Shown: positions 10,312 through 56,865 of the stretch, piece after piece
How the letters are laid out: the number at the start of each line of letters is the position of its first letter
Position numbering within the stretch: position 1 is the first letter of the stretch
Source: Acetobacterium woodii DSM 1030
GTDB lineage: Bacteria > Bacillota > Clostridia > Eubacteriales > Eubacteriaceae
Reading direction: 5' to 3'
NCBI RefSeq assembly: GCF_000247605.1
Contig: NC_016894.1
Span: 2,593,732-2,657,731, forward strand
DNA: 64,000 bases
The notes under the pieces: generated by a model
Database searches by the model: none
The model's input: the letters and a program-made list of their open reading frames with translations, nothing else
What the model was told of the DNA's origin: nothing
Translations under genes and position numbers: made by a program

Positions 10312-10318
10312 GTGCAAT

Positions 10319-10324
10319 ATTATA
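10319..10324 (-). promoter_or_regulatory. mutL: Candidate -10 box (TATAAT) abutting mutL
   Basis: A consensus TATAAT lies only seven bases before the chosen mutL ATG. Transcription from it would start within a base or two of the start codon. I see no good -35 hexamer at 17 bases, so support is moderate. The terminator after lon lies just upstream, so mutL needs its own promoter. Confidence 0.45.
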
Positions 10325-10358
10325 TCATATTTTCATAAAACCGTCGACAAAAGCTATT

Positions 10359-10398
10359 AAAAAAAGCGGAAGCCTGTAACAGACTCCCACTTTTTTTG
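10359..10398. terminator. Terminator between lon and mutL
   Basis: A hairpin with stem AGTGGGAGTCTG paired to CAGGCTTCCGCT (some G-T pairs) and a three-base loop is flanked by T runs in both directions. It lies about 50 bases after the lon stop and separates the marR-lon transcript from mutL. Confidence 0.8.
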
Positions 10399-10450
10399 AG
10401 AATATCTTTGCTCAAGTTCAGTTCATAAATTTTAAGCAGTCAACACTTTT

Positions 10451-16405: not shown

Positions 16406-18229
16406 TTAATTATTGTTTAATTCATATCCATTTACTTTGTTTTTTAACTCTTTTTCTAAAGATTCTTGATAAAAGTAATAATCCAAATCTAATCGTTGTG
16501 CCTCATGCATCGCCGCACTACCAAATCGAATCAAATCTTCTTTTGTTGTTGCATTTTCAGGAAATTTTGCAATGCCAAGGTGATGTTTGATTGTAAAAGC
16601 AGTACCTTCAATCACAAAAGGTATTCGCAGTAATTCGGAAATAAAATTGCAAATCTTTGTTAATATTTCGGTATTCGGATCTTGCGGATAAAACAGCACA
16701 AACTGATCCACATAGCGCCGAACAAATAAACCATATTTTCCGATTGCATTATACAATCGTTCACTTAGCGACTGTATTAACGAGTCTTCAACATGCTGAC
16801 CAAAAGCGTCTCCCACCGCATGAATGCCATCAACATAAATAAAAATCAAGGCCAGCTTCTTCTCTTGATTTTTTCCATTTTTATTAAAATAATTATTTAA
16901 CACCTGTTCAAGTTTATAACGATTGGGCAGTTTAGTAACCGGATCAAAGATAAAAGAAGTTTCCAACGCTTTTCGCTTTTCGATAGTTCCGCTAATATCA
17001 ATGCCTAAAAGGATATTTGTGTTTTCACCGGTTCGTTTGGTATAAATTGCGTGATCCCATTGAATATAATGGATCACCCCGGTATAATCTTTAAATGGCA
17101 ATGGTTTTCTGAAATCCATATTTTCCAGGACAAATTTTCGCTGGGTACGATTTAACTTCCCAAAAATATCCATGAGTGGTCGGCCATAAGCCGCTTCTGA
17201 ATTAATACCAACCAGTTGACTCACCATTGGATTAATATTTTTCACTTCGAAATTACTGTTACACTCAATATAAAGCAAGCTGCAATTATTTAATACGGTA
17301 TCAGCAAAAATTAACTGAGCATTAAGTTCTTCTCTTAAATCCGTCTGTTTTGTGACATCCTGAATAATCCCGATTGTTCGTAAATGTTCATTATTGTCTG
17401 TGAAAAAATGGCGTATTCTTAAATAAATATCGCGCATTTCACCGCGGTTATTTTTTATTCGGTAATGCGTATCGACCTTTTCCTGCGCTTGAAACGCCCT
17501 CAAAAATGCCTTCCAGACCCGATTTTGATCATCTTCATAAGCCATCCAGTAGATGATATCCAGATTCGGTTCAACCTCACCTTCCTGATAGCCGAGAATA
17601 CTATAAAGTTCCCGCGACCAATAGATCTTTTTCGTCAAATAATTCATTTCCCAGTAACCTAAATGAGCCAGATGTTGTATTTCTAAAAGCTCATCGCCCT
17701 GCTGATTGATATATTCGTCCTTTTCACGAGAATTTTTTAAGTCAACTGCTGTAACCACCAGAAATGATTTTGCTTTCTTATTTTTATTCTCAATTTTTAC
17801 TGGTTTGATTGTAATATGAAAGGGAATAATTTCACCATTACTATGGTAAAATTTAATGTTTGTTTCATAAACGTCGTGCTCTGCTAATTCTTTTTTCAAA
17901 GTAGTATGGTCATTATCAAAGGTATAATCGGTGGGAATTCTCTGGATACTTTTGCCAATAATTTTATCAACTGATTTTTCCTGATAATCTAAAAATGTTT
18001 TATTTGCCTGATAAATAATTCCCGCTTCATCCAAAATTACGATACAATCCGTGACTTGGTTAAAAATTCCATTAAATATTTCAGCCGCTTGCTTTTTTTC
18101 CTCGCGATTAGTCCGGACACGCATGTAATGAAGAATCCCAAATCCAACAATAATAAAAAAAACGATGATCCAAAAGATTACCATCGTTATTTCATTTTCG
18201 ATAGCAGATAAATTTAAATAGACACCCAT
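16406..18229 (-). CDS. Membrane PAS-domain sensor with degenerate GGDEF domain
   Basis: This roughly 607-residue protein has one N-terminal membrane helix (IFWIIVFFIIVGFGILHYM), three PAS-type segments (for example FNQVTDCIVILDEAGIIYQ and YWSRELYSILGYQ with a PAC-like region) and a C-terminal GGDEF-family domain opening PVTKLPNRYKLEQVL. The catalytic signature GG[DE]EF is replaced by RYVDQF, and the metal-binding region reads IYVDGIHAVGDAFG. Diguanylate cyclase activity is therefore unlikely; a role as GTP-binding or partner-binding output is more plausible. I chose the ATG behind AGGTG; an upstream in-frame TTG would add 17 residues. Confidence 0.85.
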   Translation of the reverse strand: MGVYLNLSAIENEITMVIFWIIVFFIIVGFGILHYMRVRTNREEKKQAAEIFNGIFNQVTDCIVILDEAGIIYQANKTFLDYQEKSVDKIIGKSIQRIPTDYTFDNDHTTLKKELAEHDVYETNIKFYHSNGEIIPFHITIKPVKIENKNKKAKSFLVVTAVDLKNSREKDEYINQQGDELLEIQHLAHLGYWEMNYLTKKIYWSRELYSILGYQEGEVEPNLDIIYWMAYEDDQNRVWKAFLRAFQAQEKVDTHYRIKNNRGEMRDIYLRIRHFFTDNNEHLRTIGIIQDVTKQTDLREELNAQLIFADTVLNNCSLLYIECNSNFEVKNINPMVSQLVGINSEAAYGRPLMDIFGKLNRTQRKFVLENMDFRKPLPFKDYTGVIHYIQWDHAIYTKRTGENTNILLGIDISGTIEKRKALETSFIFDPVTKLPNRYKLEQVLNNYFNKNGKNQEKKLALIFIYVDGIHAVGDAFGQHVEDSLIQSLSERLYNAIGKYGLFVRRYVDQFVLFYPQDPNTEILTKICNFISELLRIPFVIEGTAFTIKHHLGIAKFPENATTKEDLIRFGSAAMHEAQRLDLDYYFYQESLEKELKNKVNGYELNNN

Positions 18230-41232: not shown

Positions 41233-41445
41233 TTGAAAACAATTGATTGTCTTGGCGATATGTGTCCAATCCCTGTTCTAAAAGCAAAAAAGGAATTAAA
41301 AAATACCCAACCTGGCGAAACCATTAAAATCGTCACCGATCACAGCTGCGTTTTGGAATCATTATCCAGTAAATTCAAAAAACACCACATCACTTCCGAT
41401 GAAGTCATTAACGGTGTTTGGGAAATCTTCATCACCAAAATTTAA
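41233..41445 (+). CDS. TusA/SirA-like sulfur carrier protein
   Basis: The 70-residue protein has the family motif CPIPVLKAKKEL near the N-terminus, with the first Cys as persulfide carrier, and the strand pattern ETIKIVTDHSC. TusA proteins relay persulfide from desulfurases or rhodaneses to acceptors. It starts at TTG with AGGCGG ten bases upstream, and a TATAAT lies about 33 bases before the start. It is convergent with the LysR gene, overlapping by four bases. TusA next to YeeE/YedE transporters is a recurring arrangement in bacteria. Confidence 0.92.
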   Translation: MKTIDCLGDMCPIPVLKAKKELKNTQPGETIKIVTDHSCVLESLSSKFKKHHITSDEVINGVWEIFITKI

Positions 41446-42335
41446 CATAAACTCTTTCTGGCAATATCTTTAAAATATTTAATAAAATCATTCAGCGTTT
41501 TATCTTCACTGTTTCCATCATAGATCAAATACATTTCATATTCGATGACCATATCGGTGATCTCAATTAACTTAATTTGCTTTCGATAGAGCTCTTTTTT
41601 TATCGATATATAGGGAATAAATCCGATTCCAAAGCCATTCAAAACCGAAGCCTTTACTGATTCAACCGAGTCACTCTTAAACATCACATTAAGTGAATCC
41701 GGTTGCTTTCCTTCAGCTTTAATTTTATTGGCAATCATATCTGTTAAATCCATATTATCATTAAGAATAATCAATGGGTATTTAAATAATTCTTCAAGTT
41801 TTATTTTATCGGGAATCTGATAATCTGCCGCGGCGATTAAAATCAGACGATCAACCCCAATTTTATAATAAGCAAGCTTCGGATCTCTCGGTTTCCCATA
41901 AATGACTCCCAAATCACAAATGTTATTCACAATATTTTCTTCAATTTCGTGAGCCTTATTTGATTTTATTTCATAATTATTATGGGGAAATCGCTTTTTA
42001 ACGCGAAACATAACGCATGGAAGCGAATAATTCGCAATTGTCCAAAACGATTCAATCCTAATATCTTTATTGATATTATCGCTTTCTTCAAGTTTTTGTT
42101 GCATCATATAAAACGTTCGAACAATATTACCGGCATACTGATAAACAATTTTTCCCTTTTCAGTCAGTTCCACCCCTTTATTACTTCTTTCGAATAAGAT
42201 ACAATTAAAGTCATTTTCCAGCTTTGAAACCTGCTGACTCAGGGCTGATTGCGAAATATGCGTGTCACTTGCCACTTTCGAGATACTCTTAGCTTTAGCA
42301 ACTTTATAAAAATTTTCCAAATATTCAATTTGCAA
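41442..42335 (-). CDS. LysR family transcriptional regulator
   Basis: The 297-residue protein has an N-terminal winged helix-turn-helix (IEYLENFYKVAKAKSISKVASDTHISQSALSQQVSKLE) and a C-terminal effector-binding domain (from about residue 90). It lies downstream of the two split YeeE/YedE genes in the same direction and tail to tail with tusA, so it probably regulates sulfur uptake genes, as CysB/CysL-type proteins do. The effector cannot be told from sequence. Confidence 0.9.
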   Translation of the reverse strand: MQIEYLENFYKVAKAKSISKVASDTHISQSALSQQVSKLENDFNCILFERSNKGVELTEKGKIVYQYAGNIVRTFYMMQQKLEESDNINKDIRIESFWTIANYSLPCVMFRVKKRFPHNNYEIKSNKAHEIEENIVNNICDLGVIYGKPRDPKLAYYKIGVDRLILIAAADYQIPDKIKLEELFKYPLIILNDNMDLTDMIANKIKAEGKQPDSLNVMFKSDSVESVKASVLNGFGIGFIPYISIKKELYRKQIKLIEITDMVIEYEMYLIYDGNSEDKTLNDFIKYFKDIARKSLC

Positions 42336-42466
42336 AAATCATCACTTCCTAACCATTATCATTTTATATTCATCTGCTAATTGTACCATAATTCATTCCC
42401 TAAAAACACGGCGTATTTATTATTTCCGCATTGATTATTTTAACCTTTTCGACAAAATTCACATCA

Positions 42467-42988
42467 TCACATAAAAAAGCGAATGAGTATTTTACCGCCG
42501 ATAATTGCGCCAATAAACAGAAACACGCCAAATATCCAACCTGATAATGACATTGATGCAATACCGCTATAAAAAGCGCCAATATTACAACCTGAAGCAA
42601 TACTTGATCCATAACCCATCAATAACCCACCAATCGCCGCTACAAGCACCTGTTTTTTTGACTTAATTTTTTTAATTCGAAACTGTGAAGCCAAAAGAGC
42701 AGCTAACGTTGCTCCCAAAATTATTGCCGTATTTCGAACAGTTACCGGGTCATCCAGAAACCATTGCGTATAAAAAAACTGTGTATTTTCAATTCTGATC
42801 CCTGAATAGGGGCTCCATCCTAATAATTCGACTAACCGTAACCCCCAATAAGCAAATGCGCTGGTAATCCCCCATGGCTGCCTGGTTATTATTAAGGTTA
42901 TTATTTGCATGATCGATAATAAAACAGCGCCAACGACGTAAGGCCAGGCGTCTTTAAAATAATCCTCAAATTTTTTGCTATTCTTCAT
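42467..42988 (-). CDS. YeeE/YedE-like half transporter, C-terminal half
   Basis: The 173-residue membrane protein corresponds to the second half of a full-length YeeE/YedE transporter: NTAIILGATLAALLASQFRIKK, then GYGSSIASGCNIGAFYSGIASMSLSGW with the conserved Cys. It has its own GGAG ribosome-binding site and is 96 bases after the first-half gene, so this looks like a genuine split and not a recent frameshift. It should pair with the 217-residue half protein to form one transporter. Confidence 0.88.
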   Translation of the reverse strand: MKNSKKFEDYFKDAWPYVVGAVLLSIMQIITLIITRQPWGITSAFAYWGLRLVELLGWSPYSGIRIENTQFFYTQWFLDDPVTVRNTAIILGATLAALLASQFRIKKIKSKKQVLVAAIGGLLMGYGSSIASGCNIGAFYSGIASMSLSGWIFGVFLFIGAIIGGKILIRFFM

Positions 42989-43084
42989 TGAATATTCTCC
43001 AAAAAACGTTTCATATTCGTTTTGTAAAACTAATTAAAAAGACCACAACACGCTCCATTAAACAAGCAAAATAGCCGCTAAAAA

Positions 43085-43738
43085 TCAATCTTCATGTTTT
43101 TCTTCCCACTTAATCGCCAAAACATAAAGAATTCCAATCACGCCCAGTTGGAGGACCAGTGCGCCAAACCAACCCAAGCGGTCTGGCAAAAATACCCCGG
43201 CCGAAATAATCACATAATTTTGATTCCACCATTCGAATTGGTAATTTCCTAAGATCGAACCAATGAAAAAAAAGATCAACACGATGACTTGTATTTGGTA
43301 ACCTTCGCCAATTCGCATCAACATTCCCGAAGCACACCCGCTTGCCAAAACCATCCCGATACCAAAAAATAAACCGCCTACAACCGTACTTAATCCGATA
43401 CTCTGGATATATTCTTGCCCCGGAATCGGATAACCATTGACCATCGCAATAAATTTTACAACGGCAAAACCAACTGTCGTAATTCCCAGTGCAATTAGCA
43501 CCGCTCGTGTTATGGCGGTACTACCGGTGAGATACGGGTCTCTAAAAGCCGCGGTAAAACAGAAACGTGAACGTTGAAGGATATAGCCAAGCGCAATCCC
43601 CGATATCCAGTAAAATGAGATTAATGGCAAACGCAGGAAAAGATAAAGACCCAGACATAAAAGAATAACAAAGAGTCCAATTCCCCCAATAAATTGCGAA
43701 CTCCTCTTATTCGGATTCAATCCATTAGAATTTGTCAT
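43085..43738 (-). CDS. YeeE/YedE-like half transporter, N-terminal half
   Basis: The 217-residue membrane protein corresponds to the first half of YeeE/YedE: GYILQRSRFCFTAAFRDPYLTGSTAITRAVLI, VVGGLFFGIGMVLASGCASGMLMRIGEG with the conserved Cys, and a C-terminal helix ending in a charged tail. Together with the following 173-residue gene it matches the 419-residue protein encoded 9 kb away, minus the cytoplasmic linker. It is the first gene of the unit half1-half2-lysR. Confidence 0.9.
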   Translation of the reverse strand: MTNSNGLNPNKRSSQFIGGIGLFVILLCLGLYLFLRLPLISFYWISGIALGYILQRSRFCFTAAFRDPYLTGSTAITRAVLIALGITTVGFAVVKFIAMVNGYPIPGQEYIQSIGLSTVVGGLFFGIGMVLASGCASGMLMRIGEGYQIQVIVLIFFFIGSILGNYQFEWWNQNYVIISAGVFLPDRLGWFGALVLQLGVIGILYVLAIKWEEKHED

Positions 43739-45631: not shown

Positions 45632-46804
45632 TCATAATAATCCCTGTTTCTTTCTCATTTCGAATCGGGCAATAAAAACTGCTGCAATCATACTGATAAA
45701 AAAGAGGATGAAAGCCGAATTTAAATAAATTCTTGATAACCCGAAATTCTGTATCACAACAGCATTTACACTCGTACCCACGGCTCCGCCAACAAACATA
45801 TTAAAGGAGGCCAAAGACATTGCCGTTCCCCGCCTTTGGGGGAGTTTTTCTTGTACGGCGGTAATTAGTGTTGATTGTAAAAAAATAAAAGCAATACCAA
45901 ATCCCAAAAGTGCCAGCGCCAAAATCCCCACCTGAGTGAATGCTGACAATGCAAATAACGAAACGCCACCAATTATTCCTGCAAAAACGAGAAATCCGTT
46001 GCGTAATTTCATTCTAAGTGCCGGTGCGATTCGCCCCCCGACAACGGTTCCTACCCCAAACAAAGATAGGATTAACCCCACGATTAGCAAGTTGTAACCC
46101 GTTACCTCCTGAATCAGTTTTCCCGAGTAGGTAAAGCTGCCAAAGACACTAAATCCGACAAAAAAGATCACCACCACCAATCGCATAAACCGATAATTTG
46201 TCAATGGCTCTTGATACGCTTTAATAAAATTCAAATGATCGACGACTGGCTGATCCCGTTCAAGAATTTTTAGCATAATTATGGCCACAATCAATTCTGC
46301 GATCCCATAAGTCAGATAAACTAATCGCCACGATCCAAAATAAGCTAATGTTGCGCCTATTATCGTCGCCGTCGCACCACCCAAAAACATTAACCCCATT
46401 ACCTTGGCAATCGCTTTTTGGCGGCTCTGATTGTCAAAACTCTGGCCTACCAATGCTAAAGTTACCGGGAAAATGCCTGCTCCAAAAGCGCCGTTCATGG
46501 CTCGAAAAAAGAGCAGCGACGGTAAATTAAAAGAGAAGGCCCCCAACATACTAAAAATCGCCGTGCCGATTGCAGCAATGTTGATAATTTTAACCTTTCC
46601 ATAACGATCTGAAAGCGGACCAAAAATCAAAGTAAATAAGCCAAAAGCAAGCATATAAGCCGTCACCGACATCGCTGCCACACTAATTGTTAAATTCAAA
46701 TCACTGGCAATATTAATCAGCAACGGTGCTGCCGCGTAATTATCGCCATTCGCTAAAAAAGCCATTAATCCAAGAACCATAATCATTTTGTTTTTATCTT
46801 TCAT
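45632..46804 (-). CDS. Major facilitator superfamily exporter
   Basis: The 390-residue protein has about 12 membrane helices and the MFS motif A FGPLSDRYGKVKI between helices 2 and 3. The form suggests a drug:H+ antiporter (DHA1) type efflux pump. It lies between an ArsR repressor and a CDF metal exporter in the same direction, so metal or metalloid efflux is possible, but the substrate is unknown. An AGGAG site precedes the start. Confidence 0.9.
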   Translation of the reverse strand: MKDKNKMIMVLGLMAFLANGDNYAAAPLLINIASDLNLTISVAAMSVTAYMLAFGLFTLIFGPLSDRYGKVKIINIAAIGTAIFSMLGAFSFNLPSLLFFRAMNGAFGAGIFPVTLALVGQSFDNQSRQKAIAKVMGLMFLGGATATIIGATLAYFGSWRLVYLTYGIAELIVAIIMLKILERDQPVVDHLNFIKAYQEPLTNYRFMRLVVVIFFVGFSVFGSFTYSGKLIQEVTGYNLLIVGLILSLFGVGTVVGGRIAPALRMKLRNGFLVFAGIIGGVSLFALSAFTQVGILALALLGFGIAFIFLQSTLITAVQEKLPQRRGTAMSLASFNMFVGGAVGTSVNAVVIQNFGLSRIYLNSAFILFFISMIAAVFIARFEMRKKQGLL

Positions 46805-46891: not shown

Positions 46892-47257
46892 TTATTCGAT
46901 CGTTTTTTTCTTAACTCTCATACAACACGGCGCCAATAATTTCTCATTGTCAGACTTTCTTTTTTGGTCGGCCATAAGCTGAGGATAATTTTCAAGGTTC
47001 TCTAAAATATCGTTAACTTCCCGTTTTAAAACATCATTTCCCGTTTTTAGTTTATATAATACAAACTTATCATTTTTTTCCGAGCTAACCAAATCCTGAT
47101 CTCTGAGTTTTGATAAGTTTTTCGAGATATTAGGTTGGGAAATTTCCAAGATATCACTCAGTTCACACACACATAACGCATTTCGTGCAAGCAGAATAAT
47201 CATTCGAAGTCTTGTTTCATCTGCTAGAATCTTATAAATATTTATTAACTGCTTCAT
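46892..47257 (-). CDS. ArsR/SmtB family metalloregulator
   Basis: The 121-residue winged-helix repressor has the ArsR-type metal motif ALCVCELSDIL in the helix before the recognition helix (ISQPNISKNLSKLRDQ), which in arsenic sensors provides Cys ligands. An additional Cys pair lies near the C-terminus (APCCMRVKKK). It heads the arsR-MFS-CDF group, with a 32-base inverted repeat upstream as candidate operator. Arsenite, Cd, Zn or Co are possible inducers. Confidence 0.9.
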   Translation of the reverse strand: MKQLINIYKILADETRLRMIILLARNALCVCELSDILEISQPNISKNLSKLRDQDLVSSEKNDKFVLYKLKTGNDVLKREVNDILENLENYPQLMADQKRKSDNEKLLAPCCMRVKKKTIE

Positions 47258-47504: not shown

Positions 47505-47876
47505 TTAACAACAGTCTCCTCCGCAAAAGCTGCGGCTTGACATTTTTGCTTTCATTAACAACACAACTAGTTCTTCCTGAGTCATTCCCAACCAGGTAGC
47601 CAGCTCAAGATTTGAGGGATAAGTTCCATTTCGTTTGATTTCACCATCGACAACTGTTATTGGAAAAGCTAAAGCACTTTCATTTTTTAAGGCTTCATCG
47701 ACAATTTTATTAACTGTAAACATTTCTGGATTTTCAATCAATCCATAACGATGAATATTTTTTCCTTCCGCGACCAATGCTTTAATTATTGTCGCTATTC
47801 GCATCACTTCTGAATTACCACCACAACCTGCCCGTACATCTGTTAATTTCGAATCATATATTTCAATTGTATTCAT
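47505..47876 (-). CDS. ArsD-like metallochaperone without ArsA partner
   Basis: The 123-residue protein follows ArsD in length and fold: MNTIEIYD at the start, NPEMFTVNKIVDEAL, ALAFPITVVDGEIKRNGTYPSNLELATWLGM, and a C-terminal Cys motif FCGGDCC. ArsD normally passes As(III) to the ArsA ATPase through an N-terminal CC-x4-C site. Here only one of those Cys appears (RAGCGGN), and no arsA or arsB is in the window. It may be a regulator or a chaperone for another system. The second ATG is chosen, seven bases after GGAG. Confidence 0.85.
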   Translation of the reverse strand: MNTIEIYDSKLTDVRAGCGGNSEVMRIATIIKALVAEGKNIHRYGLIENPEMFTVNKIVDEALKNESALAFPITVVDGEIKRNGTYPSNLELATWLGMTQEELVVLLMKAKMSSRSFCGGDCC

Positions 47877-47926
47877 CTTCATTCTCCATTTTAAATTATT
47901 TTTGACACCCTAAGGTTTTAAGTCAC

Positions 47927-48181: not shown

Positions 48182-48538
48182 CTAAAGTAGTGCTGTGATA
48201 TTATGGCAAGTAAGACCACTATTTTGATAATGTGTGAGTTTTTTTAACTCGTCAAGAAAAAAAGCTTCCCGATTTAATTCCGTTTCAAAAAGCGATATCA
48301 AAAAAGGGTGTTCCCGTAAAATCGACTCGTTTATTTTATAATAAATAAATTTATTTTGGCGTCGACTATCTAAAAATCCGATCTCCCCCATTAAACGTAA
48401 ATGTTTTGACAAATTTGATTGGGAAATTGTTAACAGATATTCCAATTCACAAACGCATAACTCTTGAATATAAAGCAGATTAAGAATTCGTAATCGATTT
48501 GTATCCGATAAAATCTTAAGCATTTCTCTGACTGTCAT
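48182..48538 (-). CDS. ArsR/SmtB family metalloregulator (second)
   Basis: The 118-residue winged-helix protein has the same Cys motif as the first ArsR, ELCVCELEYLLTISQSNLSKHLR, and a C-terminal Cys (SGLTCHN). It is the likely repressor of the ArsD-like gene downstream, though about 300 bases separate them. The start is the ATG nine bases after AGGAGAG; an ATG three codons earlier is too close to that site. Confidence 0.88.
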   Translation of the reverse strand: MTVREMLKILSDTNRLRILNLLYIQELCVCELEYLLTISQSNLSKHLRLMGEIGFLDSRRQNKFIYYKINESILREHPFLISLFETELNREAFFLDELKKLTHYQNSGLTCHNITALL

Positions 48539-48772
48539 TGTAATCATCTCTCCTATAAATAAAAAGCTTAGATAATTGCGAAATTAAAAAACATCGAACA
48601 ATGGTTGCTTTGGATGCAATTTTCACAAACAATTTTGTAACGTGTAGGCGAACCGTTCATCGAACTGTCCGCCGTACCGTGTAGAAATTGTTTCGTGCGA
48701 AACTGGGCCCAAAGCTCACGGCACTTTCGTAATTACCTAATAAAAAGCTAACTTCGATACCTGACCATTATG

Positions 48773-50087: not shown

Positions 50088-51239
50088 ATGGATGTTTATT
50101 TAGATAATGCTGCTACAACTTTTCCCAAACCATTAGCTGTTCCCCAAGCAATTTATGATTATATTATAAACAATGGCGGAACATCCGGGCGCGGCTCCTA
50201 CGAAAAAGCAATCCTCGCTGATGGACTTGTTTACCAGACCCGTCGAACGCTTGCTAAACTTTTTAACCATGCTGATCCTAAAACCGTTGTTTTTACCGCT
50301 TCTGTCACCGAAGCTCTCAATCTAGCCTTAACCGGAATTTTAAAGCCCGGAGACCATGTTGTTACCAGTTCATTGGAGCATAATGCGGTATGGCGCTGCT
50401 TAAAAACAATGGAGCGTGATATTGGCATTTCGATTTCAATTGTTCCAGCTACACCAGATGGTGAAACGTCAAGCGAAGATGTCAAAAAAGCCATTACCCC
50501 TAAAACACGCTTGATCGTTTTTACTCACGCCTCAAATGTTTTAGGTACCATCCAGCCAATCGCCGCCATCGGCGCTCTAGCTAAAGAAAATAACATCCTA
50601 TTTCTTGTTGATGCTGCTCAAACAGCTGGCGTTCTCCCCATCGATGTCCAAGCTCAAAAGATTGATCTGTTAGCTTTCACCGGACATAAAAGCTTGCTTG
50701 GTCCGATGGGAACCGGCGGGTTGGTTGTTAACTGTGATGTTCCGATTAAACCGCTAATTTCAGGTGGAACTGGCGGTGACTCAGCCTATGAATATCAACC
50801 CGATTATTATCCCAATCACCTTGAAGCCGGGACTATGAATGTCAGCGGTATTATTGGCCTGAAAGCCGCTTTAGACTTTTTAAATGCCGAAGGTATCGCA
50901 AATATCCGCAATAAAGAGGATCAACTCATGAACTACGCTCTGGAAGCTTTACAAACGGTCCCGGGGATTGAGTTATACGGACCTCAAAATGCTGCTAAAA
51001 CAGTAGGAGTCATCCCCTTTAACCTGATTAATCACGCTCCCGAAGAAATCGCTTTTTTTCTGGATCAGCAATGTCATGTAATGATCCGTTCTGGTTTACA
51101 TTGTGCTCCCAGCGCACACCGACTAATTGGCACGATTTCACGGGGCACCTGTCGTATCGGCATTGGATATTTTAATGATCCCTCGCATATCGATGCTTTA
51201 ATTAATGGTTTAAACGCATATATAAAGGAGAATAAATAA
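50088..51239 (+). CDS. Cysteine desulfurase (class V aminotransferase, SufS/CsdA-like)
   Basis: The 383-residue PLP enzyme releases sulfur from cysteine (or selenium from selenocysteine) as an enzyme persulfide. It starts VYLDNAATTFPKP, has NNGGTSGRGSYEKA, the PLP-phosphate region, VDAAQTAGVLPIDV with the cofactor Asp, the Schiff-base Lys in LLAFTGHKSLLGPMG, and the catalytic Cys in IRSGLHCAPSAHR (type II context). It is divergent from xdhC and overlaps the next gene (TAATG), so it may feed sulfur to Moco or to the neighbouring cysteine-rich proteins. Confidence 0.93.
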   Translation: MDVYLDNAATTFPKPLAVPQAIYDYIINNGGTSGRGSYEKAILADGLVYQTRRTLAKLFNHADPKTVVFTASVTEALNLALTGILKPGDHVVTSSLEHNAVWRCLKTMERDIGISISIVPATPDGETSSEDVKKAITPKTRLIVFTHASNVLGTIQPIAAIGALAKENNILFLVDAAQTAGVLPIDVQAQKIDLLAFTGHKSLLGPMGTGGLVVNCDVPIKPLISGGTGGDSAYEYQPDYYPNHLEAGTMNVSGIIGLKAALDFLNAEGIANIRNKEDQLMNYALEALQTVPGIELYGPQNAAKTVGVIPFNLINHAPEEIAFFLDQQCHVMIRSGLHCAPSAHRLIGTISRGTCRIGIGYFNDPSHIDALINGLNAYIKENK

Positions 51240-51781
51240 TGTATTTAGCAACAATTAGTCTTATTTACATCAAACCTTGCACAACTGGCGGCGGACGGAT
51301 AAAATTTCGGGCAAAACTTAGTAACCCGGTTCCCGAAATAATGCCGTATCTCAATACGGTCATCAAAACTGGTCTCTATATTCCTGCGGCAAAAACATTT
51401 ACCTATAAGATTGGCAGTCATATTATTAATATCCACGACGATGATTTGACTTGTACGCAATTAACAAATGAAGCAGAATGTTATGAAATGATCGACCACA
51501 TTTATGATTTGATTAATGATACCTGGGAAAAAAGAGCCTCAATTACACCAAATGAAGAAACCCGGGACCGTCCCAGTGCGATTCAGCTTTATAAACTGCT
51601 GCCTAAAAAGATTGGCTGTAAAGCTTGTGGTCAAGGTTCATGTATGGCTTTTGCCTCAAAACTCATTTTAGGAAGCTGCCGACTGAATCAGTGTCCGGTA
51701 ATCAAGGAAGAAGCCTACGCCCCTAATTATTTTAGCCTGGAATCGCATCTACAATTATTGGGTTATGAAACCGATGAATGA
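51239..51781 (+). CDS. Small Fe-S protein with corrinoid-protein-type cluster domain
   Basis: The 180-residue protein has an unassigned N-terminal part (residues 1-110) and a C-terminal cluster domain LPKKIGCKACGQGSCMAFA with CRLNQCPVI. The four Cys are spaced like the [4Fe-4S] domain at the N-terminus of the acetyl-CoA synthase corrinoid subunit AcsC and related proteins. It starts within the stop of the cysteine desulfurase gene, so the two are co-translated. A role as redox or sulfur partner of the desulfurase is likely by context but unproven. Confidence 0.72.
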   Translation: MYLATISLIYIKPCTTGGGRIKFRAKLSNPVPEIMPYLNTVIKTGLYIPAAKTFTYKIGSHIINIHDDDLTCTQLTNEAECYEMIDHIYDLINDTWEKRASITPNEETRDRPSAIQLYKLLPKKIGCKACGQGSCMAFASKLILGSCRLNQCPVIKEEAYAPNYFSLESHLQLLGYETDE

Positions 51782-51859: not shown

Positions 51860-52270
51860 TTATGATTGTTGCGCTTCAATGTCATCGTATATTTTACAGA
51901 TTTCGGCGGCTGTCTTGTTTACCAATTCTAAATGTTCGGCAGTCAGATAACGGGTCGACAACGGATTCCCCAAAGCTGCTTCTAAGCCAATGATTTGAGC
52001 AATATCAACACTGCCGGCAACCGCATTACTATATTTTTCAATCGCTCGTTTGGCGCAACATTTCGAACATCCATCCACGGCAATGGTCGGATATTTTTCG
52101 GCAAACTCCCGTTCCCCACCATCTCCGGCAATAAAAAGTGGTAAACATAACGTCGTGGTCGTTCCCGGTCGCAGTTCTTCCATCGTTTTTCTCACGGCAA
52201 GTCGGGAAATTGTTCCACCCAGACATTCTTCGCCGCTACAGGCGATCACACCAATTTTATTTGTTGACAT
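51860..52270 (-). CDS. DGC-domain putative zinc-binding protein (third in operon order)
   Basis: The 136-residue protein belongs to the DGC group annotated putative zinc-binding. It has an N-terminal motif IACSGEECLGGTISRLAV, a central Cys in LCLPLF, and the signature VDGCSKCCAKRAI at about residues 66-76. The Cys set (11, 16, 42, 68, 71, 72) suits a metal or cluster site or a persulfide relay. It starts right after the preceding DGC gene stop, without a gap, and ends the operon. It may be a paralogue of its two neighbours. Confidence 0.82.
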   Translation of the reverse strand: MSTNKIGVIACSGEECLGGTISRLAVRKTMEELRPGTTTTLCLPLFIAGDGGEREFAEKYPTIAVDGCSKCCAKRAIEKYSNAVAGSVDIAQIIGLEAALGNPLSTRYLTAEHLELVNKTAAEICKIYDDIEAQQS

Positions 52271-52672
52271 TTATTTCACCTCTTCTTGTAGTTCTGCAAC
52301 GGTTTTACTGAGTACGTCGGCAAGTTCTTCAGCAAATTTCCAACCATCTTCGGTAAGCGCCGTGGCACTTCCATGTTGCTCACCGCGGTGGGGTTTTAAA
52401 AAATCAGGGACTTTATAAGACTTGACAACGACTCCGCCGGCCGCTTCAACACTTTTTTTTGAACAATATTTAGGGCAGCCATCCATCGTAATACAATTTT
52501 GACCTTTAATTTTTTCGACAACTTCGTCATCTTCCGTGACAATATGAGCTAAACACAGTGTTTCCGTTTGATCCGGACATTTCTCCTGAGTGGTAATTAA
52601 AACCGCCTCACGCGCGAGTAATCCAAATACTTTCCCAATACCGCTACATGGAATTACTTTCATCTTAGACAT
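52271..52672 (-). CDS. DGC-domain putative zinc-binding protein (second in operon order)
   Basis: The 133-residue protein opens KVIPCSGIGKVFGLLAREAV and has the signature MDGCPKYCSKKS at residues 64-73, with further Cys at about 32, 40 and 60. The C-terminus ends in a helix KFAEELADVLSKTVAELQ. It overlaps the end of the DGC-lipoyl fusion gene by eight bases. Function in the family is unknown; metal or sulfur binding is inferred from Cys content. Confidence 0.82.
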   Translation of the reverse strand: MSKMKVIPCSGIGKVFGLLAREAVLITTQEKCPDQTETLCLAHIVTEDDEVVEKIKGQNCITMDGCPKYCSKKSVEAAGGVVVKSYKVPDFLKPHRGEQHGSATALTEDGWKFAEELADVLSKTVAELQEEVK

Positions 52673-53513
52673 CGGCTTCTGCTACCTTTCTTTGCAATAA
52701 TTCAAAATAAGCTTGACACCCATGGAGCAAGTCCTGATCTTCCTCAAAATCGGTCAGCTTAACTTCAACTAACCACCCCTTTTCATAAGGGCTTTCATTG
52801 ACTTGTTCCGGTGCATCACTTAAAGTATCATTGACAGCAACAACAATTCCTGCAACTGGCGAAATAACTTCAAAAACTGCTTTGCTGGATTCTAAACTGC
52901 CTAAGTCATCAAACTGTTCAAATTCCAAGCCGATTTCGGGTGCCTCGACATATAGAATATCAGACAAATTTTGCTGAGCATAATCACTGACCCCAATTCG
53001 GGCAATGTTTCCCGAAACCGCCACCCAACAGTCATTTTCATTGAAAAAATAACCGGTTTTAGGCACCTTAAAAACAAACTTTCCCTCGGTAAAGGAATCA
53101 TACTCGATTTTTTCCGTTTCCACAAAAGCCGATGCTACCTGCTGATCTGATGAATTATTTATTTTATCCACTATCGTCTGAACGAAAGCTTGTGTCTCCT
53201 GATCATCACGAATTTCAACACCCAGTTTAACCTGCTCGGCTTTAGCCAGTTCACTGACATTAATTTTGTCTTTGATGATGATATTCATATTCCCGGCTAA
53301 TTTACTGGCACAACGCGTGTTGCAACCATCAATCACTGTTAAATTACCGGTTTCAAGAACTTTTTCATAGCGGCTTTTATTCTGGTTAAGCAACACCGGA
53401 CAAATCAAATCGTATTCATCTGTTTCGGCAAGCTGTAAGGCGACACGCCTGGAAATATCACCGGCACACTTATCTAAACCATTACACGGTAAAACACAAC
53501 TTTTATTACTCAT
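52665..53513 (-). CDS. DGC domain fused to lipoyl GcvH-like domain
   Basis: This is a 282-residue two-domain protein. The N-terminal part (1-125) is a DGC domain, with VLPCNGLDKCAGDISRRVA and IDGCNTRCASKL. The C-terminal part (about 137-282) matches glycine cleavage H protein: VSGNIARIGVSDYAQQNLSDILYVEAP, then LGSLESSKAVFEVISPVAG and VNESPYEKGWLVEV. Lys211 in ESSKA is the expected lipoyl-lysine. Other glycine cleavage genes are absent here, so the lipoyl arm likely serves another reaction, as GcvH-like LbpA does in sHdr sulfur oxidation. This arrangement is unusual. It overlaps the ferredoxin gene by eight bases. Confidence 0.85.
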   Translation of the reverse strand: MSNKSCVLPCNGLDKCAGDISRRVALQLAETDEYDLICPVLLNQNKSRYEKVLETGNLTVIDGCNTRCASKLAGNMNIIIKDKINVSELAKAEQVKLGVEIRDDQETQAFVQTIVDKINNSSDQQVASAFVETEKIEYDSFTEGKFVFKVPKTGYFFNENDCWVAVSGNIARIGVSDYAQQNLSDILYVEAPEIGLEFEQFDDLGSLESSKAVFEVISPVAGIVVAVNDTLSDAPEQVNESPYEKGWLVEVKLTDFEEDQDLLHGCQAYFELLQRKVAEADV

Positions 53514-53808
53514 TTTTTACCGCCTCCTTGTCAGCCTTTCGGGTTGCTTTAATTTTTTTTGTTGTTTCACCTTTATCCGGAAATGTTATCGCGTCAAGAC
53601 CACAAGTTTTTCCACAAGCGCGACAAAAAACAACACAATTATTCGGATTTTTAACCTTTAATTTTGGTGTTTCTGTCTCATTGATTTCAAAAACTTGATG
53701 GGGACAAAATTCGACACAATCCATACAATCGTTACATTTCGAAAAATCGATTCGGGGCGACCAATCAATACGATCCCGTTCTACTCCCATAAAAGTTGAT
53801 TCACTCAT
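53506..53808 (-). CDS. Ferredoxin-type protein with two cluster motifs
   Basis: The 100-residue protein has a classical [4Fe-4S] motif CNDCMDCVEFCP and a second, divergent one CVVFCRACGKTCGLDAITFP, in which Cys spacing is C-x3-C-x2-C-x3-C with Gly in place of the usual Pro. It ends in a lysine-rich tail. It lies between the HdrA-N-like and lipoyl-fusion genes, so it probably carries electrons between them. Both neighbours are coupled by short spacing or overlap. Confidence 0.88.
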   Translation of the reverse strand: MSESTFMGVERDRIDWSPRIDFSKCNDCMDCVEFCPHQVFEINETETPKLKVKNPNNCVVFCRACGKTCGLDAITFPDKGETTKKIKATRKADKEAVKNE

Positions 53809-53810
53809 AA

Positions 53811-54182
53811 CTAAACCTCGTATCCCATTTCTGCTAATTTTTTTTCAACCAATTCAAACGCCTGCTCGTTCGTCATATCCCGGATATCCATCATCACGGC
53901 ATCTTCTTCAATATTTAGACCGGCTTCTTTAAAAGCATCTTTAAACATTTTTCGCTGCATGTTAGGCGCACATGCTCCGATAATCACTTTGCGGTGAGCT
54001 TTCAAAAAATCAGCTAAAAATCGGTCACCATCTTCTTCACATAATTGCGGATGAATAAAAGCATATTCAACTGGCAGTTCTACTCGCACTTGATTAATAA
54101 AATCCCAAATGTCCATCGCTTGAAACCCCGGGCATTTTCCAGTACATACACACATGATAAAACCAGGTAATTCTTGACTCAT
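53811..54182 (-). CDS. Stand-alone HdrA N-terminal-like protein
   Basis: The 123-residue protein resembles the N-terminal domain of heterodisulfide reductase subunit A: IMCVCTGKCPGFQAMDIWDF, an internal Cys in HPQLCEEDG, and KVIIGACAPNMQRKMFKDAFKEAG, comparable to the HdrA segment around SCSPRMHE. HdrA uses such Cys for a [4Fe-4S] cluster. The FAD domain of HdrA is missing. The ATG with GAGGTGG five bases upstream is chosen; an ATG seven codons earlier would include that site. It is the first gene of the operon behind a perfect promoter. Confidence 0.78.
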   Translation of the reverse strand: MSQELPGFIMCVCTGKCPGFQAMDIWDFINQVRVELPVEYAFIHPQLCEEDGDRFLADFLKAHRKVIIGACAPNMQRKMFKDAFKEAGLNIEEDAVMMDIRDMTNEQAFELVEKKLAEMGYEV

Positions 54183-54549: not shown

Positions 54550-55671
54550 TCAATCCAACAGTTTAATTGTTTTAAGAATGTTATAACCTAACCGCCGTTC
54601 CTTACCTTCAAAAGGAAAAGCATGCATCACAATCATCGGATTAAAATTCAACTCAATGATTCCATAATTTGAACCGGAATCGCAATAATCTTCAATGATC
54701 ATATCAACTCCACAAAATTTAGCGTTAAATGCCTTCGCGGCATTCAGCGCAATTTGTGAAAAATGAGCATTCATCTTTTCACTGAAGTCAATGCTATCGC
54801 CACCAGTACTGATATTTGAATTTCCGCGCAAAAATATCATTTCCTTTTCTGAGGGAACGGATTGGTTCGTTAATCCTTGTTTATTCAAAAACATCAGTGA
54901 TTGTTCATCTAACACAATTTTTTTTAGCGGACTGGTCAGACCGTCTCCTCGATATGGATGTTTGTTTTTTTGATCAATTAGCTCCTGAATACTTGATACC
55001 CCATCCCCAATTACATTAGCCGGGCGACGATGAAGGACCGCGACGACTTCTTCCCCCATGGTCAGAAAACGAAATTCCATCCCTGCCAAATAATCTTCAA
55101 TTATAATTGTATCATCATATGAAAAAGCAATTTTTGCCGCTTCCAACAGCTCATCAACAGTTCCGCCTCGATCAAAAATACAGATACCCAAACCAAAATT
55201 AGTGGATTTAGGTTTAATCACCACTTTTTTACCGACGTATTTGGGAATCTTTAGTTTTGCCTCGGCAAACGAAAAATATTCCTCACCATCGGGAACAGGC
55301 AGTTTATTTTCACTAAGAATTTTTTTTGTAACGACCTTATTTTCCATTAATAATGGTGTAATATAAGCGTCGACACTGGTTTTTGTCGCTTGCTTAACGT
55401 ACTCCATCCGACCATCTCTTTCAAGTCGGATAATATTATCGGCAGCATCCATCGGCGTTACTTTAACGCCTCTGGTTAATGCTTCCTTGATTAAAATCTG
55501 CGTTGACATTTCCCAATTTTCAAATCCACTTAAACGATAGTGATCTTGTTGCGACTGCATCTGATATTTTTGGGCAAGCGCTAAATTGGCAGCCAGACAA
55601 CCTTCTTCCAACATTAAACACTTCAAACGATAAGCATAGGTTGTTTCCGGATGTTTAACCCGATTGTGCAT
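54550..55671 (-). CDS. GshF C-terminal-type ATP-grasp (glutathione synthetase-like)
   Basis: The 373-residue protein corresponds to the C-terminal half of bifunctional GshF (GshAB): MSTQILIKEALTRGVKV, YVKQATKTSVDAYITPLLMENKVVTKKIL, the ATP-grasp lysine region KKVVIKPKSTNFGLGI, IIEDYLAGMEFRFL and the metal site GIIELNFNPMI. It should add glycine (or an analogue) to gamma-glutamylcysteine. In most bacteria with GshF the two halves are one chain; here the gene is separate and lies three bases after gshA. A first 30-residue segment (RLKCLMLEEGCLAANLALAQ) looks like remnant linker of the fused form. Confidence 0.88.
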   Translation of the reverse strand: MHNRVKHPETTYAYRLKCLMLEEGCLAANLALAQKYQMQSQQDHYRLSGFENWEMSTQILIKEALTRGVKVTPMDAADNIIRLERDGRMEYVKQATKTSVDAYITPLLMENKVVTKKILSENKLPVPDGEEYFSFAEAKLKIPKYVGKKVVIKPKSTNFGLGICIFDRGGTVDELLEAAKIAFSYDDTIIIEDYLAGMEFRFLTMGEEVVAVLHRRPANVIGDGVSSIQELIDQKNKHPYRGDGLTSPLKKIVLDEQSLMFLNKQGLTNQSVPSEKEMIFLRGNSNISTGGDSIDFSEKMNAHFSQIALNAAKAFNAKFCGVDMIIEDYCDSGSNYGIIELNFNPMIVMHAFPFEGKERRLGYNILKTIKLLD

Positions 55672-55674
55672 TTC

Positions 55675-56865
55675 TTAAATACAGCGATCCTGCTTTAAAT
55701 CAAGGTATTGATTCAACTCCATGATCTTATCTAAAATATCTTCAGCCCAAGCTGTTTTTAACGTCCACTGTTGATGATCCAATAATTCCAAATCCGGTTC
55801 AAGTCCATGTTCAGCCACAGCTAGCTCGTTAATTAAAGCCTCTTGTTGCCAGGTATCAAAATATTCTTCCCCTTCTAATAATAAAAAAAGCATAAAGACA
55901 TTCATAAATTCAAGGTCTATTTGGGCAATTCCACATTTATCAAAAACATTGAGATCAATGGTACGGATCTCCAGGTACTGAATTCCATCCGTTTCTAAAG
56001 ACTTTAGAACGTTTTGAAAGTTCTTTGGCTTTAGTCGAATCTGGGCGTAAAGTTCTTTAGCTTCTGATATCTCTCCTCTTTTGATAAACTCATTGATACT
56101 TTTTATATAATCTTTTGTCGAACGATAATCCGGATACAAGTCAATTTCATTACGATAACCACTGCAACTGCCATTTCTGGCCGAAATTCCGTTCTGACTT
56201 AAAAAAGTCTCATTTCCGCAATCTCCCATACATTCCAGGCATTCTTTGATATATGAATCATGTAACCCAGGGGTACACCCCATTAAATAAATAATTAACC
56301 AGCGATACCGTAAATAGTTCCGCAAAACTTTTAAGTACATATGATCTTTAAAATCTTTAAAACTTTCCACTCCACCAGACTCTTTCCAGAGTGTTTTTAT
56401 AAATGTTTCGCCAAAAGAGAAGTTATAATGAATTCCCGAGATCAGTTGTCTTTTTCCACCATATTTAATCATTAATTTTTCCCGATACGCTCTTGCTTTT
56501 CGCCCATTTTCGCCCTGATAGGTCGCAATTGGGATCAACTCATCCGCGGGAATGTCACAAGGCATGGAATAGGGCCAAAGCAACTCATCATTAGCGCCAA
56601 TTTCAGCAATTGCAATATCTGTCAGGGCTTCTAAAAAACGATACGTTTCGTCAACTGAATCAAAAACCGGCGTAACTAATTCAACCTGACTTTCGGAAAA
56701 ATCGGTTGTTATATATGGATTTTTAAGCTTATCTCCAAAAACTGACGGATGTGGCGTTAATGCCAACTTTCCTTGGTTAGTAACTCGAAGCCCTTCCCGT
56801 TCAACCCCAAACTCGGCAGTTAAAATACTTTCTGGTGTCATTTTACTCTTTATAATTTCGATCAT
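55675..56865 (-). CDS. gshA: Glutamate-cysteine ligase, GshF N-terminal type
   Basis: The 396-residue protein makes gamma-glutamylcysteine from Glu, Cys and ATP. Motifs: ILTAEFGVEREGLRVT at the N-terminus, TDFSESQVELVTPVF, LLWPYSMPC, and RQLISGIHYNFSFGE. The sequence fits the glutamate-cysteine ligase half of GshF. With the neighbouring ATP-grasp gene it forms a split glutathione pathway, unusual for a strict anaerobe but fitting the thiol-rich neighbourhood. An AAAGG site is eight bases before the ATG. Confidence 0.9.
   Translation of the reverse strand: MIEIIKSKMTPESILTAEFGVEREGLRVTNQGKLALTPHPSVFGDKLKNPYITTDFSESQVELVTPVFDSVDETYRFLEALTDIAIAEIGANDELLWPYSMPCDIPADELIPIATYQGENGRKARAYREKLMIKYGGKRQLISGIHYNFSFGETFIKTLWKESGGVESFKDFKDHMYLKVLRNYLRYRWLIIYLMGCTPGLHDSYIKECLECMGDCGNETFLSQNGISARNGSCSGYRNEIDLYPDYRSTKDYIKSINEFIKRGEISEAKELYAQIRLKPKNFQNVLKSLETDGIQYLEIRTIDLNVFDKCGIAQIDLEFMNVFMLFLLLEGEEYFDTWQQEALINELAVAEHGLEPDLELLDHQQWTLKTAWAEDILDKIMELNQYLDLKQDRCI

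Follow-up and report, generated by a model that had tools for sequence, protein, structure and literature searches.

A stretch of 64,000 nucleotides of the genome of Acetobacterium woodii DSM 1030 (hereinafter the window; contig NC_016894.1) contains five consecutive minus-strand genes that encode, in order, a stand-alone protein resembling the N-terminal part of HdrA (HdrA-N), a ferredoxin, a fusion of a DGC domain with a lipoyl carrier domain of the GcvH type, and two further DGC-domain proteins, DGC2 and DGC3 (Table 1). Successive genes are separated by a 2-bp gap, an 8-bp overlap, another 8-bp overlap and a 0-bp gap. A first-pass annotation, made from the sequence alone, had described this closely spaced array; all five open reading frames (ORFs) and their domains were verified, and the observation is stronger than first claimed.

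Table 1. Features of the A. woodii window (positions are those of the window).
Feature	Position	Strand	Remarks
HdrA-N, stand-alone HdrA N-terminal-like Fe-S protein	54182 (or 54203) to 53811	minus	123 amino acids
Ferredoxin, two-cluster (CxxCxxCxxxC ... CxxxCxxCxxxC)	53808-53506	minus	100 amino acids; Pfam dicluster ferredoxin 6.3e-7
DGC-GcvH fusion	53513-52665	minus	282 amino acids; Pfam GCV_H 1.3e-32 and DGC 3e-19 in one ORF
DGC2, second DGC protein	52672-52271	minus	133 amino acids; Pfam DGC 2.8e-14
DGC3, third DGC protein	52270-51860	minus	136 amino acids; Pfam DGC 1.4e-17
Promoter, TTGACA-17-TATAAT	54258-54230	minus	12/12 consensus positions; upstream of HdrA-N
gshB- and gshA-like halves of a GshF-type gamma-glutamylcysteine/glutathione synthetase	54550-56865	minus	474 + 397 bits (cut-off 425)
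Uncharacterised protein with C-terminal FeS (PF04060) motif	51239-51781	plus	
Cysteine desulfurase-family protein	50088-51239	plus	convergent neighbour
Two ArsR/SmtB repressors, CVC motif	46892-47257, 48182-48547	minus	4.6 and 3.3 kb from the operon
ArsD-like protein between the two ArsRs	47505-47882	minus	63 bits, under cut-off of 90
MFS transporter	45632-46804	minus	family beside 14/80 operon loci, up to 82% identical
Fourth DGC-domain protein of the A. woodii genome	44203..44565	plus	

HdrA-N is 123-130 amino acids long depending on the start codon used; the start at 54182 is supported because its ATG is invariant in 12 of 12 aligned sequences (the window and 11 close relatives). The protein has no Pfam match. 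It resembles the N-terminus of HdrA weakly, matching positions 8-93 of the 771 of the NCBIfam HdrA model (6.4e-6, far under the cut-off for whole HdrA), residues 6-93 against PDB 7bkb chain A (1.2e-4) and residues 2-125 of the HdrA of 5odc (5.7e-4), but differs from HdrA in that the FAD (thioredoxin-reductase) and C-terminal ferredoxin domains are absent. Its cysteines C18, C20, C24, C55 and C78 (numbered from the 54203 start) are each present in 81 of 81 alignment rows. The cysteines of the ferredoxin are equally invariant (81/81 for the first cluster, 80/80 plus one gap for the second); its top NCBIfam match is HgcB, at 39.4 bits against an equivalog cut-off of 99.

In the fusion protein, the DGC domain spans approximately residues 6-106 and the lipoyl GcvH domain approximately residues 156-272, with Lys211 as the lipoyl site. 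Loss of this lysine or of the DGC cysteines among relatives had been named in the first-pass annotation as evidence that would speak against a dedicated system. The lysine is conserved in all 78 rows that reach the position, and nearly all DGC cysteines are kept: C10, C38, C64 and C68 of the fusion in 79 or 80 of 80 rows, C9, C66 and C70 of DGC2 in 77/77 plus one gap (C40 in 75/77), and C11, C42, C68 and C72 of DGC3 in 77/77. The structural model of the fusion (predicted local distance difference test, pLDDT, 89.1; predicted template modelling score 0.58) identifies its second half as an H-protein that superposes on solved H-proteins with a template modelling (TM) score of 0.94 by target length; the GcvH-L structure 5a35 matches this half as well. 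The DGC3 model (pLDDT 93.6) shows the alternating strands and helices of the Rossmann type and has no clear relative among the solved structures compared.

In the region examined, 10 promoter-like sites were observed against a chance expectation of 7.3, and only one, that given in Table 1, matches at 12/12 positions; this site is nearly unchanged across the 12 aligned sequences. Directly downstream of this promoter and before the start codon, the conserved sequence resembles an operator (CATAAGGAAATAATTATAT type). Seven of the 11 close relatives additionally have, upstream, an inverted repeat (TTATAAGCAATTGCTTATAA type; three without mismatch), which the window itself lacks.

The five genes recur as a unit. 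A scan of 84,980 species genomes with two short peptide patterns of the HdrA-N alignment, followed by tblastn, retrieved 133 HdrA-N relatives; all counts out of 80 loci given here refer to the best 80 of these 133, and loci are numbered with the prefix L. Four of the 80 end at a contig edge, and all 76 complete loci contain all five families, in the order of the window in 73 cases (including L119, where the DGC3 ORF merely starts early) and with the last two DGC genes first in three. Because this recurrence was obtained with HdrA-N as the only query, the arrangement is far from chance, and the dedicated, co-conserved operon proposed earlier is corroborated; a lack of co-occurrence elsewhere was the other outcome that the first-pass annotation had named as adverse. 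Among 298 other genomes drawn from the same phylum, seven encode a full-length fusion, 45-49% identical to that of the window, and each has all five genes in identical order. The unit occurs in many unrelated and mainly anaerobic microbes, among them Acetobacterium, Eubacterium, Clostridium ljungdahlii, Caloramator, Desulfosporosinus, Sedimentibacter and metagenome-assembled genomes (MAGs) of Bacteroidales, as well as MAG contigs labelled Armatimonadetes, Planctomycetaceae, Actinomycetes, Sigynarchaeota, Heimdallarchaeota and others (binning unchecked). At the level of predicted gene content, conservation of the five-gene unit extends from the Clostridia to MAGs of Bacteroidales and, in the form of MAG contigs, to Asgard archaea.

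Several assemblies carry two copies of the operon (L054 and L056, L071 and L079, L072 and L083, L109 and L111; these belong to Eubacterium callanderi, two Desulfosporosinus assemblies and Lucifera butyrica). At L038, a second DGC2-DGC3 pair (16420-17249) follows about 5 kb downstream of a complete operon, and L166 contains a shrunken copy (9353-10500) composed of the ferredoxin and two shortened DGC-like ORFs, which adjoins genes for ArsR and an ArsP-type permease, ACR3 being more distant. Among 72,556 plasmids, HdrA-N had no match; the fusion matched 148 records, always at less than 80% coverage, and those listed, 20 in number, concern the GcvH part.

The fusion appears to be served by its own lipoylation route. 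For 50 of the 80 loci, the genome was searched for GCV_H, and in seven of these genomes the fusion is the only GCV_H match of any kind. In 11 genomes (drawn from the 50, plus that of A. woodii) we searched for lipoate ligase, glycine decarboxylase (GDC-P) and the 2-oxoacid dehydrogenase E2 component. A ligase is present in all 11 and E2 in seven; GDC-P over the cut-off was not found in eight of the 11, and one of the three matches is marginal (26.4 bits). The remaining four genomes, namely the MAGs of L055 and L073, Clostridium tepidiprofundi (L058) and C. frigoris (L084), have exactly one ligase each, located 0.9, 0.9, 1.2 and 4.2 kb, respectively, from the GcvH domain of the fusion, and yielded no E2 match, no GDC-P over the cut-off and no second full-length GcvH; three of them contain one further GCV_H match of 35-39 positions that was taken for a biotin carrier. 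The simplest reading is that in these four genomes the ligase exists for the fusion protein. The A. woodii genome, one of the three with a GDC-P match, has three ligases, none of them beside the operon, five dihydrolipoyl dehydrogenases (Lpd) over the cut-off and ordinary lipoyl enzymes, so the argument for dedicated lipoylation is not based on this organism. The lipoate ligase LplA lies near 19/80 loci. A tree was computed for 115 GcvH domains, with program warnings of few columns, long branches and unsettled bootstrap. It places the fusions in one clade (97/82), which joins the unfused GcvH proteins of the sister form described below on a long branch (support 100/99) and is thereby set off from the 37 ordinary GcvHs. 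Because of the four genomes with a sole ligase within 5 kb of the fusion and none of the other lipoyl proteins sought, the prediction that the fusion is lipoylated in vivo and does not serve glycine cleavage is well supported. Glycine cleavage itself was rejected as the function, given that there are carriers in which no glycine decarboxylase over the cut-off was found and that the GcvH domain of the fusion belongs to a separate clade; what is shared with the H-protein of glycine cleavage is the fold and the lipoyl site.

Neighbouring genes within 10 kb were clustered and representatives of the clusters were named by NCBIfam, except for the cysteine desulfurase family, which was named from the neighbour in the window and by sight. 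The named families are ArsR/SmtB, Lpd, DsbD/CcdA-like proteins, ACR3, ArsC, thioredoxin-like proteins, lipoate ligase, a SaoE-like permease (ArsP_1 in Pfam), ArsF-like proteins, ArsA, ArsM and ArsD. In 37 of the 50 genomes an ordinary GcvH locus is present as well, and it served as the matched control. ArsR occurs at 36/37 operon loci and at 0/37 control loci, and at least one of ACR3, ArsA, ArsC, ArsD and ArsM at 23/37 and 0/37, respectively (p 1.5e-9). Over all 80 loci, ArsR is found at 68, any of the five named ars families at 47 and either at 71; the corresponding numbers for 61 hand-made lineage groups, many of which consist of one MAG, are 52, 38 and 54. The nearest ArsR has a CxC motif at 51 of 68 loci, most ArsRs of Bacteroidales being without it. 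ArsC lies near 23/80 and ArsM near 13/80 loci. The surroundings had originally been taken to point to sulfur; instead, many relatives reside amid arsenic genes. Lpd is encoded within 10 kb at 42/80 loci (median distance of 56 bp over the genes of the Lpd cluster), in keeping with the thiol-redox part of the 'thiol-redox or sulfur relay' first suggested; the sulfur-pathway part is not supported. Thioredoxin and CcdA/DsbD-like proteins are found near 23/80 and 32/80 loci, respectively, and ABC ATPases equally often at operon and control loci (8/37 each). The family with the PF04060 motif (near 14/80 loci; 7/37 vs 2/37 in the control) and the MFS family (4/37 vs 0/37) are not significantly enriched. 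General heavy-metal resistance was demoted as an explanation: P-type ATPases, sought by motif in ORFs of at least 300 amino acids, occur at 2/80 loci only (one of them CPx-like) and at 0/37 control loci, though CDF metal transporters lie near 13/80. Regulation of the operon by ArsR-type repressors is a well-supported prediction.

The DGC domain was also sought in 299 genomes of the same phylum and 14 control genomes; it was detected in 43 of the former and in one of the latter (Methanosarcina acetivorans), and 34 DGC regions were retrieved. Four of the 299 genomes (L159-L162) contain a sister form of the operon with the order ACR3, unfused lipoyl GcvH, DGC2-like, DGC3-like, OsmC-like and Lpd, the Pfam domains of the members having been checked at L160, where three other genes separate ACR3 from GcvH. 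A ligase gene is present in all four sister loci (on the opposite strand in L161), and two of them encode a radical-SAM protein that is presumably LipA; HdrA-N and the ferredoxin were not found in the four stretches. Lone DGC genes of one subtype lie near ArsR, ACR3 or an ArsP-type permease at 18 of 21 loci (19 genomes), with ACR3 itself near 16 of the 21; none of the 37 GcvH control loci has any of these three families.

Within the A. woodii window, the two ArsRs, the ArsD-like protein and the MFS transporter lie 3-6 kb from the operon, and the ArsD-like protein, which scores below the cut-off, is the only candidate there for a pump, reductase, methylase or chaperone. A. woodii thus keeps ArsR and ArsD-like genes although ACR3, ArsB and a full ArsA were not found in its genome; ArsP-type permeases are present elsewhere in it. 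Directly upstream of the operon, the GshF-type synthetase is divided into two genes; the other flank is occupied by a convergent pair, the cysteine desulfurase gene and that of the protein with the FeS motif. In the region 41442-43738, a YeeE/YedE-type transporter is split into two ORFs, for which the best model is the selenium-type YedE/FdhT, below the cut-off, and the adjoining LysR regulator resembles a selenium-associated type, also below the cut-off. The neighbour called TsuA in the first-pass annotation corresponds to pieces at 42467-43738 that score best, again below the cut-off, with this selenium-type model.

Based on the arsenic context and the dedicated lipoyl carrier, we lean, with some reserve, towards the view that the operon is a system of arsenic and antimony handling built on that carrier, and the sulfur interpretation should yield to the metalloid one. 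The dithiol of lipoic acid is the textbook victim of arsenite. Upon entry of the metalloid, an ArsR-type repressor would release the strong promoter; a ligase would attach lipoate to Lys211 of the DGC-GcvH fusion, and Lpd (with NADH), aided in the five-gene form by the ferredoxin and HdrA-N, would maintain the swinging arm in its reduced state. In that state, both arm thiols could capture As(III) or Sb(III), and the Cys-rich DGC proteins might help to hold the metalloid and hand it over to whichever pump or methylase is available, candidate recipients being ACR3, ArsA/ArsD, an ArsP-like or MFS permease, and ArsM. Taken in full, the scheme would be a new detoxification mechanism in which a covalent, enzyme-recharged dithiol arm (lipoyl-GcvH fused to DGC) serves as the binding site of As(III)/Sb(III) and passes the metalloid around the Cys-rich DGC proteins, driven by Lpd and by low-potential ferredoxin/HdrA-N. 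Such a mechanism would be of considerable age, given its spread over several phyla of bacteria and possibly Asgard archaea, and would provide the first function for the DGC domain (PF08859); this complete version is tentative, and we would not count on all of its parts. Both ars resistance and dedicated lipoyl carriers are already known, and the novelty would lie in the metalloid role of a dedicated lipoyl-carrier set, for which there is a real chance that it is a mechanism of a new kind. We found no description of the five-gene set in the literature searched, the scope of which excluded most subscription papers and bioRxiv, in agreement with the earlier statement that no system with this exact set had been described.

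A number of observations weigh against an arsenic role. No named ars family is encoded, up to 10 kb on each side, at 33/80 loci, and neither an ars gene nor ArsR at nine (four of these under 11 kb), the nine including C. tepidiprofundi, whose genome is among the four on which the case for dedicated lipoylation is based. At the two archaeal loci, ArsR is present and a named ars gene is not. ACR3 and ArsB were not found in A. woodii, where the ArsA-like matches are all partial, which leaves no named recipient of the metalloid there. The matched comparison is lenient because the profiles were built from the operon side and the GcvH loci are housekeeping loci, and it shows no enrichment of Lpd (18/37 vs 10/37 in the control) or LplA (6/37 vs 8/37), since the glycine cleavage control loci carry both too. 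Cysteine desulfurase is enriched (11/37 operon vs 1/37 control loci) and CDF transporters are found at 4/37 vs 0/37 loci (p 0.11), so that sulfur supply or other metals have to be considered. Furthermore, the CVC motif is found in Cd/Pb sensors as well. No ars context surrounds the lone DGC genes of a second subtype (0/5 loci), and in two further regions DGC genes lie among methyltransferases: L164 (3840-6811) has a DGC-DGC pair amid corrinoid, MtrH and URO-D-type methyltransferase genes, and L165 (7303-15973) encodes, in this order, MtrH, two URO-D-type proteins, DGC-DGC-GcvH, a radical-SAM LipA-like protein, LplA and Lpd. A non-arsenic use of the lipoyl-DGC set in L164 and L165 is possible, and the presence of the set among corrinoid methyltransferases in L165 disfavours a purely arsenic role of the wider family. 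Finally, ArsR-type repressors such as sHdrR and SoxR can sense sulfane sulfur (PMC12423496).

An alternative that we consider unlikely, yet worth keeping in view, is an electron relay in which Lpd and/or the ferredoxin would reduce the lipoyl disulfide and the electrons would pass through DGC/OsmC-like proteins to pentavalent arsenicals or peroxides under arsenic stress. Ohr/OsmC peroxidases take electrons from lipoyl proteins, and the OsmC-like member of the sister form, along with the frequent Lpd, thioredoxin and CcdA/DsbD-like neighbours, would fit; however, arsenate reduction is often covered already by a separate ArsC (23/80 loci), and three Cys-rich DGC proteins would be left unexplained. 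That the operon repairs or shields Fe-S and lipoyl enzymes hit by thiophilic poisons, with no specific metalloid traffic, is very improbable: proteins of both types are classic arsenite targets and the operon itself encodes both, but in the four carriers with a single ligase no other E2 or GcvH lipoyl enzyme was found that could be repaired. We give the least credence to methyl or organometalloid chemistry, in which DGC (thiolate/zinc) and lipoyl thiols would exchange methyl groups, with methylarsenicals at the arsenic loci and with corrinoid methyltransferases in L165. The MtrH and URO-D-type genes of L165 and ArsM near 13/80 loci are compatible with such chemistry, but the L165 GcvH is very distant in the GcvH tree (branch 7.3) and no corrinoid protein was noted among the named representatives of the families that recur around the five-gene form.

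A sulfur or persulfide relay akin to the sHdr-LbpA systems, in which sulfane sulfur bound to the lipoyl arm would donate electrons to HdrA-N and the ferredoxin, is doubtful at best. Cysteine desulfurase near 18/80 loci, with the enrichment given above, and rhodanese near 8/80 would suit it, as would the control of sHdr by sulfane-sulfur-sensing ArsR-type repressors (PMC12423496). As described in PMC6067878 and PMC12423496, the systems of Hyphomicrobium and archaea resemble the operon in having a GcvH-like lipoyl carrier outside glycine cleavage, an Hdr-related protein and ArsR-type repressors, and, in sulfur-oxidising archaea, a linked Lpd; their dedicated lipoate ligase close by has a counterpart at a part of the operon loci. 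The differences are substantial. LbpA has two strictly conserved extra cysteines, one N-terminal and one C-terminal, although not in all archaeal LbpAs (PMC6067878), whereas in the GcvH half of the fusion these are not conserved, the best cysteine column reaching 53/79 and the next 12/77. In addition, GcvH is fused here to DGC, only an N-terminal piece of HdrA is present, and ars genes lie near 47/80 loci; HdrB, HdrC and a flavin-containing HdrA were not found among the window proteins scanned, a scan that did not extend to the relatives. Sulfur oxidation of the sHdr type was accordingly demoted.

With the ars gene islands (ArsR, ACR3/ArsB, ArsA, ArsC, ArsD and ArsM) the operon shares many loci and the same type of repressor, and we know of no ars protein that is a lipoyl carrier, an HdrA piece or a DGC protein. 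The GcvH-L/LplA2/SirTM-macrodomain operons of Firmicutes are stress operons that pair a dedicated GcvH-like carrier with a ligase of its own; here, no sirtuin or macrodomain was noted among the operon's partners, which are Fe-S and DGC proteins instead. A further, unexplained use of the H-protein fold was encountered in Bacteroidales, where proteins of about 245-570 amino acids contain a GcvH-like domain (L193, 7395-8132 and 10315-12006; L194, 7717-9411; L195, 360-2075); those of L193 and L194 are encoded near apparent two-component regulator genes.

If the metalloid interpretation is correct, the lipoyl dithiol, known as a victim of arsenite, would in these organisms be turned into a tool against arsenic, lipoate would gain a role outside both carbon and sulfur metabolism, and the DGC domain, so far recognised by its motif alone, would acquire a testable function. 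The operon could also serve as a marker of arsenic metabolism in anoxic aquifers and digesters. Since the A. woodii genome yielded neither ACR3 nor ArsB nor a full ArsA, the operon may matter there beyond being an addition to a pump, and it would offer this acetogen a possible route for coping with arsenic.

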